DNA from: Prevotella sp.
Lineage (GTDB): Bacteria; Bacteroidota; Bacteroidia; Bacteroidales; Bacteroidaceae
Length of the DNA stretch: 64,000 nt
Reading direction: 5' to 3'
NCBI GenBank assembly: GCA_017623155.1
Contig: JAGAPR010000001.1
Location: 248,001 to 312,000, forward strand
This document shows, one piece after another, positions 1,158 through 62,801 of the stretch. Each line of letters opens with the position of its first letter. Positions within the stretch are counted from its first letter, which is position 1. Below the pieces are notes generated by a model, which was not told where the DNA came from, made no database searches, and saw only the letters and a list, made by a program, of their open reading frames with translations. Both the position numbers and the translations under genes were made by a program.

Positions 1158-1190
1158 AAATGTTAATGCGTATTAAACGCATTAACATTT
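1158..1190. terminator. Perfect 13-bp hairpin after nqrF
   Basis: AAATGTTAATGCG pairs perfectly with CGCATTAACATTT across a 7-base loop. There is no long T run, so it may be a weak terminator for the nqr operon or a structural part of the adjoining repeat. The matching place near 37577 in the second repeat copy does not keep the hairpin. Confidence 0.45.
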
Positions 1191-1578
1191 CTGATATTAT
1201 ATTTACAAAATAAGGCCTCATATTTGCGTTCTTTTCAAAAAATAATTTCCTCGGCGAAAAAAACGCATTTTTAGAGCATTTTACGTAAAATACTGTCAGT
1301 CAGTCTCTTATCTGCAAAATCTACAATCCTTACTACCCATACAACCCCTACCATTTTCCAATTAGGCCGTAATTGCATTCCAATTAGGCCGTAATTGGAA
1401 CGCAATAAGGCCGTAAATGCAATGCAATTACGGCCTTATTGCAAGGCAAAAACACCCGAAAATCATGTCAAACCCCGAATAATTGCATCTCAACCCTGAA
1501 ATAATGATACGGAAATGTCAATTTAAATTCTTGCCAATTTCTAAACGGTGACTTCAAGTCGCACTTTTTGTGTTTAAC
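1178..1578 (-). repeat. Dispersed intergenic repeat of about 400 bp, copy 1
   Basis: The reverse complement of this stretch matches 37176-37577 over almost its full length with scattered substitutions. Shared blocks include GTGCGACTTGAAG, GAATTTAAATTGACATTT, AAAATGCTCTAAAAATGCG and GGCCTTATTTTGTAAATATA. The four-unit palindromic array at 1358-1442 lies in the centre. No transposase gene or coding capacity is visible. The two copies are in opposite orientation and flank about 36 kb. Confidence 0.9.
1358..1442. repeat. Four-unit palindromic array, type A, copy 1
   Basis: Four 19-bp units start at 1358, 1380, 1402 and 1424, each separated by 3 bp (att, aac, aat). The units are CCAATTAGGCCGTAATTGC, CCAATTAGGCCGTAATTGG, GCAATAAGGCCGTAAATGC and GCAATTACGGCCTTATTGC. 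Each has 7-bp inverted arms around a GGCCG core (CGGCC in the fourth unit). Units 3 and 4 are reverse complements of each other at 18 of 19 positions. The 22-bp period is exact, and four other arrays in this window have the same layout. Confidence 0.95.
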
Positions 1579-1627
1579 AATTACCTTTCGATTTTTATAT
1601 TTTTAAACATAAATGTTACCGTTTGTT

Positions 1628-17717: not shown

Positions 17718-18323
17718 TTATTCTGTTTTAAGTTCGTCAGACCTTATGCCAAGTGCCTGCATGAGTGAATATCCGAGTATTTCCTGTCTGAAATTGCCGC
17801 CTGCAAGCGGTTGCATGGCGAATACGGTGGCTCGTTTGTTGTCATCGTCAAGATAACGTTTCAGCGTTTCCCTCACCGTATCATATATTCTTTCGGCATT
17901 CGGTATGATCATTATCCGCTTCACATTCTTATTGTTGCAGATTACTTTGAGAGATTCTATAAACAGGTCTTCGCCTGTTGCCACATCGTCTTCTATCGGT
18001 AACGAACTTATCAGAAATTCTCCGAGATTGTCGGAGAAAGCTTTACCGTCAAGCTCATCGGCATAGTTTCCCGGTATGAAATTATTCATTTCATGATGTG
18101 ATTTGTCATGTATGAAAATCACTTGTGTCTTATTTTCTCCTTCCCGCAGACCGCCGTCAAGTGCCACACAGTCAATCCATCGTGCGGTATCGGCCTTTGG
18201 TATGCGCCGGCCTATCATTCTTTCAAAATTGACGATGAGGTCAAACGCAACCTTGTCGATGTAATTTCCGTCTGCCAAAATCACGTTTTCGTACAAATCT
18301 TCGTTATGGAATTTATTGTTCAT
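17718..18323 (-). CDS. Conserved Bacteroidales protein of unknown function
   Basis: I do not recognise a characterised family for this 201-residue protein. It has no signal peptide or membrane segment and looks like a soluble cytoplasmic alpha/beta protein: alternating hydrophobic strands (TQVIFIHDKS, KRIMIIPNAE, ATVFAMQPL) and acidic helices. Histidines cluster in FIHDKSHHEMNNF. It may belong to one of the Bacteroidales-only DUF families (possibly DUF6621), but that is from memory and unchecked. It is the first gene of the transcript that goes on to the polyamine-type dehydrogenase and recA, with a textbook promoter directly upstream. Confidence 0.75.
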   Translation of the reverse strand: MNNKFHNEDLYENVILADGNYIDKVAFDLIVNFERMIGRRIPKADTARWIDCVALDGGLREGENKTQVIFIHDKSHHEMNNFIPGNYADELDGKAFSDNLGEFLISSLPIEDDVATGEDLFIESLKVICNNKNVKRIMIIPNAERIYDTVRETLKRYLDDDNKRATVFAMQPLAGGNFRQEILGYSLMQALGIRSDELKTE

Positions 18324-23925: not shown

Positions 23926-24022
23926 TGAAATGTTACACGGCCGTAGTAACGATGTTATGTAAACGTTGTGACAATGTTACGTGGCCGTAGTAACGATGTT
24001 ACGTGGACCAAGTAACATTTCA
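23926..24022. repeat. Four-unit palindromic array, type B, copy 1
   Basis: Four 19-bp units start at 23932, 23954, 23976 and 23998: GTTACACGGCCGTAGTAAC, GTTATGTAAACGTTGTGAC, GTTACGTGGCCGTAGTAAC and GTTACGTGGACCAAGTAAC. Spacers of 3 bp (gat, aat, gat) give an exact 22-bp period. The whole is bounded by TGAAAT and ATTTCA, which makes 11-bp terminal inverted repeats TGAAATGTTAC/GTAACATTTCA. It begins 12 bases after the rsgA stop codon. Confidence 0.95.
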
Positions 24023-36787: not shown

Positions 36788-37078
36788 ATGGATATATTAC
36801 ATCGTATTTCACTTTATTACCTGCTTGCCGTCAATGTCATGGCGTGTCTTGTGTATGGCATTGACAAATGGAAAGCGAAAAGAAACAAGTGGCGTATATC
36901 CGAAACAACCCTTCTCATGCTGGCTGTAATTGGTGGCAGTATCGGGGCTTTGACCGGAATGAAGCTGTGGCATCATAAGACGATGCACAAAAAATTCAAA
37001 TATGGAGTGCCTTTGATATTGATTGCGCAGATTGTTTTGGCGATATATCTGCATATATCTTTCAGTCTGCATCATTAA
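36788..37078 (+). CDS. DUF1294 family small membrane protein
   Basis: The 96-residue protein has the DUF1294 pattern: a first membrane helix ending in MACLVYGIDKWKAKRNKWRI, then SETTLLMLAVIGGSIGALTG, HHKTMHKKFKYGVPLIL and a last helix. The function of the family is unknown. It follows mtgA by 20 bases and is probably the last gene of that transcript. No terminator was recognised, but the repeat element starts about 100 bases downstream. Confidence 0.85.
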   Translation: MDILHRISLYYLLAVNVMACLVYGIDKWKAKRNKWRISETTLLMLAVIGGSIGALTGMKLWHHKTMHKKFKYGVPLILIAQIVLAIYLHISFSLHH

Positions 37079-37175
37079 TAGAACCATCGCAACGAAATCA
37101 TATTGATGACAATTTGCTGTACGGTAAATAATTTCGGAGACCGGGAGGTTCTTAATAAATGTAAAAACCGAGGGG

Positions 37176-37577
37176 TGATTGTTAAAAGCGGAAAGTGCGA
37201 CTTGAAGCCACCGTTTAGAAAAAGCTGAGAATTTAAATTGACATTTTTGTGTCATTATTTGAGGGTTGGGATGCAATTATTCGGGGGTTGACATGATTTT
37301 CGGGTGTTTTTGCGTTGCAATAAGGCCGTAATTGCATTGCATTTACGGCCTTATTGCGTTCCAATTACGGCCTAATTGGAATGCAATTACGGCCTAATTG
37401 GAAAACGAGAAGGGGTGTAGGGGTCGTAATGATTGTAGATTTTGCAGGTAAGAGGTTGACAGACAGTGTTTTACGCAAAATGCTCTAAAAATGCGTTTTT
37501 TTCGCCGAGGAAATTATTTTTTGAAAAGAACGCAATTATGAGGCCTTATTTTGTAAATATAATATCAGAGATGTTAA
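37176..37577 (+). repeat. Dispersed intergenic repeat of about 400 bp, copy 2
   Basis: This is the inverted partner of 1178-1578, alike over nearly the full length. It contains the type A array at 37317-37401. Differences between copies are spread evenly and include changes at all codon positions of the one open frame it contains, which argues against a coding role. Confidence 0.9.
37317..37401. repeat. Four-unit palindromic array, type A, copy 2
   Basis: Units start at 37317, 37339, 37361 and 37383: GCAATAAGGCCGTAATTGC, GCATTTACGGCCTTATTGC, CCAATTACGGCCTAATTGG and GCAATTACGGCCTAATTGG, with spacers att, gtt and aat. The order is that of copy 1 read on the other strand. Period 22 bp, total 85 bp. 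Confidence 0.95.
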
Positions 37578-37711
37578 CGGCATTAAGATATATTAAGAAG
37601 CGCATGATGAGTGCAGAGTTAATATTCGTCCGGACGCACGACCCCGTGCATCCCTACTTTTTCCATAAACCATCATCCGCGGCGTGGAAATTATTTACCG
37701 GAGAGCAATGT

Positions 37712-37730
37712 GTTGCTTGGGCCGCGTAAC
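37712..37730. repeat. Single type B palindromic unit
   Basis: GTTGCTTGGGCCGCGTAAC is followed by ATTTCAAAAAATCG, the same flank as the right end of the array at 23926-24022. The 19 bases one period upstream (37690-37708) resemble a unit only weakly, so this looks like the end of a decayed array. Confidence 0.8.
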
Positions 37731-47649: not shown

Positions 47650-47672
47650 ATTCCTTAGTTGTAAAAAACAAA

Positions 47673-47704
47673 AAAGAGTTTCAAATTATCTTGAAACTCT
47701 TTTT
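47673..47704 (-). terminator. Terminator of the tRNA-Ser/Glu/Glu transcript
   Basis: On the minus strand AAAGAGTTTCAA pairs with TTTGAAACTCTT across a short loop, followed by a T run. It lies just after the first-listed tRNA-Glu. Confidence 0.85.
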
Positions 47705-47705
47705 G

Positions 47706-47777
47706 TAGTGGATAGGGGAATCGAACCCCTATGCCAAGATTGAGAATCTTGTATCCTAACCATTAGATGAATCCACC
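47706..47777 (-). tRNA. tRNA-Glu, anticodon CTC, copy 1
   Basis: The 72-base minus-strand gene begins GGTGGATTCATCTAATGG. The anticodon loop is TTCTCAA on stem CAAGA/TCTTG. It is identical to the copy at 47831-47902. CCA is not encoded. Confidence 0.96.
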
Positions 47778-47791
47778 GTAGCTTTCTAAAT

Positions 47792-47830
47792 TCAAAAAAA
47801 GAGCCTCATTTTATTCTGAAACTCTTTTTG
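47792..47830 (-). terminator. Terminator-like hairpin between the two tRNA-Glu genes
   Basis: On the minus strand AAAGAGTTTCA pairs with TGAGGCTCTTT (two mismatches), followed by a T run. It resembles the terminator at 47673-47704 and was probably duplicated with the tRNA gene, then drifted. Confidence 0.6.
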
Positions 47831-47902
47831 TAGTGGATAGGGGAATCGAACCCCTATGCCAAGATTGAGAATCTTGTATCCTAACCATTAGATGAATCCA
47901 CC
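47831..47902 (-). tRNA. tRNA-Glu, anticodon CTC, copy 2
   Basis: This copy is identical over 72 bases to the one at 47706-47777, exactly 125 bases away. It is the nearer of the two to the promoter. Confidence 0.96.
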
Positions 47903-54437: not shown

Positions 54438-54522
54438 GTTACGCGGCCGAAGTAACAGTGTTACTTGACTCGGGTAATATCGTGATTTGGCCCGAGTCGC
54501 ACTGTTACTCGGGCCGCGTAAC
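54438..54522. repeat. Four-unit palindromic array, type B, copy 2
   Basis: Units start at 54438, 54460, 54482 and 54504: GTTACGCGGCCGAAGTAAC, GTTACTTGACTCGGGTAAT, GTGATTTGGCCCGAGTCGC and GTTACTCGGGCCGCGTAAC, with spacers agt, atc and act. The outer units are clean palindromes and the inner two are degenerate, but GACTCGGG in unit 2 pairs with CCCGAGTC in unit 3. The left flank is TTGAAAT, as in the other type B copies. It lies between carB and the AlkD-like gene. Confidence 0.93.
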
Positions 54523-62176: not shown

Positions 62177-62409
62177 TAACATATTGTTACATGGCATACC
62201 GGCACGACTTCGCCGGCGATGAGGGTTCTTTTTAAGATTTCAATCTCACATTTAACTAAAAACATGTAAACGGAAAGTAAAAAGTCGATACAAAATATTT
62301 TCGCGAAGTAGGTTTTGTTAACTTAAAATATTTAACTTGCAAGGTGATTATTTAATATTTGTAAACAATTGCATGTCGGCCTTTTCTCCTTTTTGTACAT
62401 TTTTGCCTT

Positions 62410-62494
62410 GCAATAAGGCCGTAATTGCACTGCGTTTACGGCCTAACGGGAGTGTAATTAGGCCGTAATTGGAATGCAATTACGGCCTAATTGG
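62410..62494. repeat. Four-unit palindromic array, type A, copy 3
   Basis: Units start at 62410, 62432, 62454 and 62476: GCAATAAGGCCGTAATTGC, GCGTTTACGGCCTAACGGG, GTAATTAGGCCGTAATTGG and GCAATTACGGCCTAATTGG, with spacers act, agt and aat. The second unit has lost much of its palindrome. Outside the array only a few bases (TTTTGCCTT on the left, AAAA on the right) match the other type A copies, so the 85-bp array is the conserved part. Confidence 0.95.
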
Positions 62495-62801
62495 AAAACA
62501 AGATGATTTTCGAGGCATTCAAAAATGGCTTTAATACTCGTATCTTTCTGATATACAATTGTTTACGTGATGTGTTCTGTAATTCGCTTATTTGCGAGCT
62601 CGAGAACTTTTTTTTAGACGAATGGCCTTAATTTTGACGTTAACATAATAAATTATTACAATTTATTTATGCTTGTTTAACAAAAAGGCATGGAAATGTT
62701 AAATGATAGACGCCGGATGTGATTATGTCGTCCGAAATGTAGGATGAACAATGAAAATCACATTATATTATGCGAATATGTAAAAATATATATTGTTTTA
62801 T

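Follow-up and report, generated by a model that had tools for sequence, protein, structure and literature searches.

Prevotella genomes contain arrays of 19 bp palindromes separated by 3 bp spacers, in which the arm sequences differ between species and the 22 bp pitch is retained. With a probability of roughly 0.5, we read these arrays as sites bound by a protein that is dimeric and probably associates with itself; they would have spread as repeats with a changing, species-specific code. The window analysed is a stretch of 64 kb (G000:C89:248001-312000) from a MAG of 2.74 Mb in 104 contigs with 84% completeness. The closest named homologues of one window protein belong to Prevotella and close kin (identity at most 74%).

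The five arrays listed for the window in the original prediction are all present, each with four 19 bp units, 3 bp spacers and a 22 bp period (Table 1). Palindromic pairs per unit (9 possible, 36 per four-unit array) amount to 7, 8, 6 and 7 in array 1358 (sum 28), 7, 6, 8 and 7 in array 37317 (28), 6, 6, 6 and 8 in array 54438 (26), 7, 5, 6 and 7 in array 62410 (25) and 6, 3, 6 and 8 in array 23932 (23), of which the second unit is barely palindromic. Among 200 control sequences of 64 kb (first-order Markov), the top four-unit sum at pitch 22 ranges from 19 to 25, with 25 reached once, 24 twice and 23 eleven times. Array 23932 is therefore not exceptional by palindromicity alone; it is credible through the type-B motif GTTACNNNGNCNNNGTAAC, which three of its four units match exactly. 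Both predicted arm types were recovered: allowing 3 mismatches, the window has 11 matches to type A where 0.05 are expected, and allowing 2, it has 8 matches to type B where 1.6 are expected. Window sites scoring at least 25 number seven at pitch 22 (four arrays, half-step duplicates counted), one at pitch 19 and none at pitches 20, 21 and 23-30.

The GGCC core is likewise present. It had been placed in the centre of the units, but lies half a base off the palindrome centre, so that units possess an orientation. Sampled four-unit type-A arrays have a first unit in plus and a last unit in minus orientation, with variable inner units. DNA makes one helical turn per 10.5 bp, and a step of 22 bp corresponds to 2.1 turns. 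The four sites consequently drift by about 100 degrees and do not lie exactly on one face of the helix, contrary to what had been supposed.

Table 1. Arrays and elements in the window (window coordinates) and type D and E arrays elsewhere in the source genome (contig coordinates)
Feature	Position	Strand	Basis or remark
Type-A array, four units, orientation +++-	1358..1442	+	palindrome scoring
Type-A element of subtype 1 with leader, array and tail	1160..1608 (ends approximate)	+	flank alignment, sequence
Type-B array, four units, unit 2 degenerate	23932..24016	.	motif and palindrome scoring
Type-A array, four units, orientation +--- read on + strand	37317..37401	-	
Type-A element, subtype 1, 451 bp	37149..37599	-	flank alignment
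Lone type-B unit, then ATTTCAAAA (usual type-B right-hand sequence)	37712..37730	.	adjoins type-A element
Type-B array, four units	54438..54522	.	palindrome scoring
Type-A array, four units, orientation +-+-	62410..62494	-	
Type-A element of subtype 2 (about 471 bp; termini TTAAGATTTC ... GGAAATGTTAA)	62232..62702 (ends approximate)	-	
Type D arrays	G000:C89:43718, C2:109, C20:14499, C17:45928		outside window
Type E arrays	G000:C89:108612, C11:10662, C20:30509		outside window

The source genome (G000) contains 438 matches to the type-A unit motif, with none in the reversed control. The motif is absent from 79 relatives, 47 congeners among them, and a two-unit type-A pattern has no match in the genome contig collection, from which the window's own genome is possibly missing. 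A 0.785 Mb sample including the window holds 40 type-A arrays with 151 motif matches; by extrapolation, the whole genome has about 116 such arrays. Of the 40 sampled, 39 consist of exactly four units with a 22 bp period, the exception being a 2+2 arrangement with one extra base. Four-unit runs in the same sample, counted at one score threshold, number 52 at pitch 22 and between 0 and 6 at every other pitch in the range 19-33; in the source genome no pitch but 22 is enriched, as the predicted period would have it. The type-B motif is present in 63 exact units genome-wide. Types D (TTAATTG...CAGTTAA) and E (ATTACAA...TTGTAAT) share the 22 bp pitch in longer runs of variable length, and the type E array of contig C11 continues from type-B-like units. 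Several contigs begin or end at arrays (beginnings at or near type-A arrays occur e.g. in C3, C8, C11, C21, C23 and C26), a pattern to be expected if a high-copy repeat breaks the assembly.

Flank alignments place type A within a MITE-like element of approximately 450-470 bp. Around most type-A arrays, BLAST similarity extends for about 176-211 bp in one direction and 157-179 bp in the opposite one before it ends. There are two main subtypes, differing in flanks and in inner-unit orientation, to which tail motifs assign 20 and 17 of the 40 copies (three unassigned). The ends are TTAA-containing imperfect inverted repeats when read by eye, e.g. the imperfect terminal inverted repeat TTCTTAATAAAT / ATATATTAAGAA of element 37149..37599, and no target-site duplication was seen by eye next to them. 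No leader or tail match was found more than 260 bp from any type-A array (nine copies as queries, 0.785 Mb sample). Type A, and type A only, is thus a short non-coding repeat (50-1000 bp) with discrete ends, as MITEs are; arrays of type B and of the G092, G093 and G094 families described below are apparently without shared flanks, leader or tail. The type-A leader (e.g. window 37480-37550) contains an imperfect long inverted repeat. A CTCCCCAAGGGGAG-like repeat, perhaps a separate repeat family, recurs just beyond the end of several subtype-1 elements. The lone type-B unit adjoining element 37149..37599 is perhaps the remnant of a truncated type-B array.

Neither Y1_Tnp (PF01797) nor DDE_Tnp_1 (PF01609) has a match in the MAG (84% complete). 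An IS4/IS5-type parent in the MAG was accordingly discarded on the zero matches to PF01609, though MAGs lose insertion sequences. A phage or plasmid origin is not supported either, as window 37117-37590 is unmatched in plasmid and phage collections. Viral contigs contain 32 stretches with one type-A 14-mer each and none with the TGTGCA array pattern of genome G094.

Arrays of 19 bp palindromes with 3 bp spacers, mostly of four units, recur outside the source genome: 11 further Prevotella genomes have arrays of three units or more, and their arm sequences differ from those of the source genome. The 80 named loci of the Prevotella group (1.44 Mb) yield nine four-unit runs at pitch 22 versus 0-4 at any other pitch, with different arms among the pitch-22 runs. 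The family of G092 (CAAAANGGCCNNTTTTG) has 76 matches versus 8 in the reversed control, that of G093 (CAAAATCGCCGATTTTG type) 25 versus 1, and that of G094 (TGTGCA-N7-TGCACA) 157 versus 4; G094 is, by coordinates, the same assembly as G301. Four units are present in 10 of 10 fetched loci of G093 and in 8 of 10 of G092 (in register in L249), the other two (L251, L254) having about three. If up to 4 of 12 positions may mismatch, all 15 loci of G094 contain a chain of four or more units (seven with four, seven with five, one with six), and their flanks have only three short matches in common. One 330 kb contig of G301 possesses six arrays with four good units, two of these with a degenerate fifth, besides two lone units; 41 units were counted at up to 2 mismatches versus 7 in the reversed control. 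Units beyond the four are near background in types A and B and in the G092 and G093 families.

In 200 kb of G016 there are about six arrays, with 3-5 units each, some with a leader resembling, by eye, that of type A (shared words TTCCTCG and AAATACGCG). G024 has one array, G252 has arrays in all four loci, and G209 and G027 have four units each. About four weaker units occur in 4 of 5 loci of G096; of the four G011 loci, three have three units, and two to three units occur in G045 and G042. G004 and G017 have one four-unit array each, that of G004 being seen in locus L340 and absent from L403. The predicted constancy of unit number thus holds for type A and most arrays of other species, but not for G011 or for types D and E. 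In a further fetched set an array was present in 16 of 20 loci, the weakest being L394 (sum 20) and L405 and L406 (19), versus 16-17 in the four array-less loci L391, L403, L408 and L409. Of 299 congeners, only 3 have the TGTGCA arm type in large numbers, and 10 further congeners have one to five matches. Contig-1 samples show no pitch-22 excess in 20 genomes from elsewhere in the order (261 kb) or in 20 congeners (240 kb, with several of the samples very short), and the congener samples argue for an array density that varies widely and against one uniform in the genus.

Close relatives can carry different arms. The ProRS proteins of G301 and G096 share 97% identity, the second flanking protein compared (L105 versus L106) shares 83%, and each genome has a pitch-22 array between the same two genes, with different arms. 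TGTGCA units number 157 in G094/G301 versus 10 in G096 (control 2), and TTATCAGNCTGATAA has 56 matches in G096 (control 7). The latter family appears to be real but less sharp, since nine other genomes give 5-25 matches (control 4-13). Arrays lean to few gene-end sites, so the site common to G301 and G096 may be a coincidence. Thirty genomes were searched at the ProRS 3' site, 28 with a usable locus (that of G011 ends shortly past the gene): arrays occur in G301, G096, G017 and G004, a two-unit run in G028, and none was recognised in the remaining 23 loci. G045 and G042, two other congeners, share one orthologous site where each has an array, with the same arms in both; the few internal differences are located by eye in spacer and core positions. 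A common transglycosylase-adjacent site for array 37317 and the G092 array was rejected, as a small reading frame (about 36789-37079) intervenes in the window.

Conservation is higher in arms than in spacers for three of four families. Information per column in arms, core and spacers is 1.23, 1.53 and 0.32 in G093, 1.17, 1.11 and 0.14 in G092, and 1.19, 1.06 and 0.74 in type B; type A reaches 1.74, 1.77 and 1.47, its spacers nearly matching its arms, as in young copies. Arms are nearly invariant in G094 and cores variable, and the spacers are largely ACT, CTT, AGT or AAG and thus not free to vary there. Covariation of the arms, a check proposed with the original prediction, is not evident: complementarity between left and right arms within a unit is not clearly above the between-array level (16 tests, uncorrected; lowest P 0.034 for unit 1 of G092 and 0.046 for unit 3 of type A). 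These small samples comprised 39 of 40 type-A arrays, 17 hand-listed type-B arrays, 7 of 10 G092 loci (L249, L251 and L254 left out) and 10 of 10 G093 loci, and low variation in type A limits power; information content was computed on the same sets, except for 16 arrays in type B.

In some comparisons the units within an array are more alike than expected by chance, and local duplication therefore also acts. Among 64 uncorrected tests of unit-to-unit similarity, type B gave P 0.0075 for units 1-4 inverted, and 0.001, 0.014 and 0.013 for units 2-4, 2-3 and 3-4 direct; type A gave 0.003 (3-4) and 0.010 (1-4), both direct. A fixed pairing between units 1 and 4 was dismissed, since direct similarities are equally strong, and the resemblance is read as local homogenisation and not as structure. 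Based on these sequence comparisons, we regard the units as probably independent, constrained half-sites that have undergone some local homogenisation.

For 28 type-A arrays both neighbours were called: the two genes are tandem in 16 cases, divergent in 11 and convergent in one; background gaps of at least 150 bp comprise 85 tandem, 56 divergent and 32 convergent. These counts derive from crude ORF calls, with nine arrays at stretch ends and two inside crude ORFs set aside. Outside the source genome, 29 of 35 array loci had both neighbours called, of which 13 are convergent, 11 tandem and 5 divergent, versus 60 convergent, 100 tandem and 58 divergent background gaps of at least 180 bp in the named loci. 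G094 arrays are 6 convergent, 9 tandem and 0 divergent, the L105/L274 array being counted in both tallies. Arrays in other species thus lean to gene ends and most type-A arrays precede at least one gene, a difference that no single regulatory role fits. Type-B array 23932 lies between an RsgA-like gene (18 bp off its 3' end) and an FGGY-kinase-like gene, and array 54438 is 44 bp from the 3' end of a DNA-alkylation-repair-like gene, with a CPSase-large-chain-like gene starting 149 bp away. A common neighbour or regulon is not supported, as the 20 flanking proteins scanned (of 62 listed ORFs) have no shared theme; none matches a DNA-binding regulator family, and four are without Pfam match.

A literature search that covered few subscription papers found no description of 22 bp palindrome arrays in Prevotella. 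Similar arrays are not described in the accessible portions of PMC3733652 (on REPs), PMC12306157 (RepRanger), PMC5771137, PMC4060949 or the MITE review PMC10969869. The original prediction that no described element has such a layout holds to this extent, but BrickBuilt, a MITE of Porphyromonas gingivalis and the nearest element, shares the overall plan. According to the accessible text of PMC4596501, BrickBuilt is likewise intergenic, limited to a species of Bacteroidales, and composed of a leader, a tandem repeat of near-equal length and a tail, with small inverted-repeat ends; it has 19 elements per genome, IS5-like ends and spacer-free 23 nt direct repeats in 1 to 22.8 copies. The Prevotella units are, in contrast, palindromic, 19 bp plus 3 bp spacers and mostly four in number (39 of 40 type-A arrays), with about 116 type-A copies.

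REPs are outlined in the accessible parts of PMC3733652 as 20-40 bp hairpins with a GTAG or CGTC tag (see also PMC2817692, PMC3116915 and PMC8049555). As far as these excerpts go, REPs, BIMEs and REPINs resemble the Prevotella arrays as species-specific extragenic palindromes of high copy number, often arrayed. The Prevotella arrays differ in their fixed 22 bp pitch, in lacking a tag and clear stem covariation, and in that RAYT does not track with them. Bases beside type-A units, read by eye, are mostly ATT, AAC, AAT, AAG or their complements, with no GTAG or CGTC tag. At E<=0.001, PF01797 has no match in G000, G093, G094 and G096, three in G016 (C1: 610881, 624154, 669038) and one in G092 (C9: 28271), one of the four genes having an internal stop. 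A REP/RAYT system is not supported, since the Y1 transposase is absent from four of six array-bearing genomes (G000 MAG 84% complete). Tandem ARG boxes, read by the oligomeric repressor ArgR, consist of two 18 bp boxes of conserved sequence at a pitch of about 21 bp, located at few operators. The Prevotella arrays resemble these as tandem palindromic boxes with a fixed short gap, and differ in their number (tens to more than 100), changing arms and no regulon seen.

Both original suggestions, binding array and non-autonomous element, are compatible with half-site-like units and the repeated type-A element; no cognate protein was found. On the favoured protein-binding reading, the half-sites of an array, eight in all, would alternate in orientation at intervals of about 11 bp on a fixed 22 bp ruler, and a dimeric, probably self-associating and cooperative protein would usually occupy four sites per array, the row of dimers winding slowly round the helix at 2.1 turns per step. 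Arrays would be dispersed between genes as short repeats that are, or formerly were, mobile, presumably by transposition, type A being carried by its MITE-like element. That half-site sequences change between species on a constant ruler would follow if protein specificity and site population changed together. A host benefit (chromosome organisation, transcription barrier) and selfish arrays are alternatives under this binding model; a genus-wide docking system of Prevotella chromosomes, with tens to more than 100 intergenic four-dimer arrays, an invariant ruler and a code rewritten between close relatives along with all of its sites, is possible but rather unlikely. Protein half-sites fit better than hairpins, given arms more conserved than spacers and no clear covariation. 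Hairpins in RNA or single-stranded DNA, for instance tandem stem-loops at 3' ends with a role in transcript stability or termination, or substrates of the REP kind, would agree with the 6-7 bp stem possible per unit and with the gene-end lean outside the source species, but G094 arm letters are nearly invariant beyond what stems need, Rfam has no match at the arrays (window scan at gathering threshold; one RNase P and five tRNAs elsewhere) and type A is nearly absent between convergent genes, which renders hairpins quite improbable.

Selfish non-autonomous repeats, with palindromes as internal transposase sites, an own family per lineage and nothing for the host, rank close behind protein binding as a possible, if tentative, explanation. 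The leader, tail, imperfect inverted-repeat ends and copy number of type A, the confinement of leader and tail to array vicinity and the contigs that start or stop at arrays all accord with such repeats, but the two transposase domains are unmatched in the MAG, neither target-site duplications nor empty sites came to light (no conspecific genome was found for the latter), the B, G092, G093 and G094 arrays are without leader or tail, and one ruler across unrelated families is unexpected for independent invaders. Ordinary minisatellite slippage, with a 22 bp unit palindromic by chance, is very improbable: Tandem Repeats Finder does report period 22 with about four copies, types D and E form longer, variable runs and units show some similarity inside arrays, but core and orientation differ among units of one array while arms hold, type A is nearly fixed at four units and one pitch is common to many arm families. 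Dispersed bacterial palindromes are mostly regarded as REP-type hairpins; here the ruler is conserved and the sequence turns over even among close relatives. Should a protein read the arrays, it would have to change in specificity jointly with dozens of sites, and Prevotella would offer a bacterial system for the rapid co-evolution of a DNA-binding protein and its site population. Palindromes at pitch 22 are a sequence-independent signature that can be scanned in any genome.

Two further repetitive features were noticed in the window. Four palindromic 19-mers at pitch 19 (position 18019, score 29) lie within a long reading frame and are probably due to chance, and a 125 bp tandem duplication carrying two tRNA genes is located at 47670-47902.
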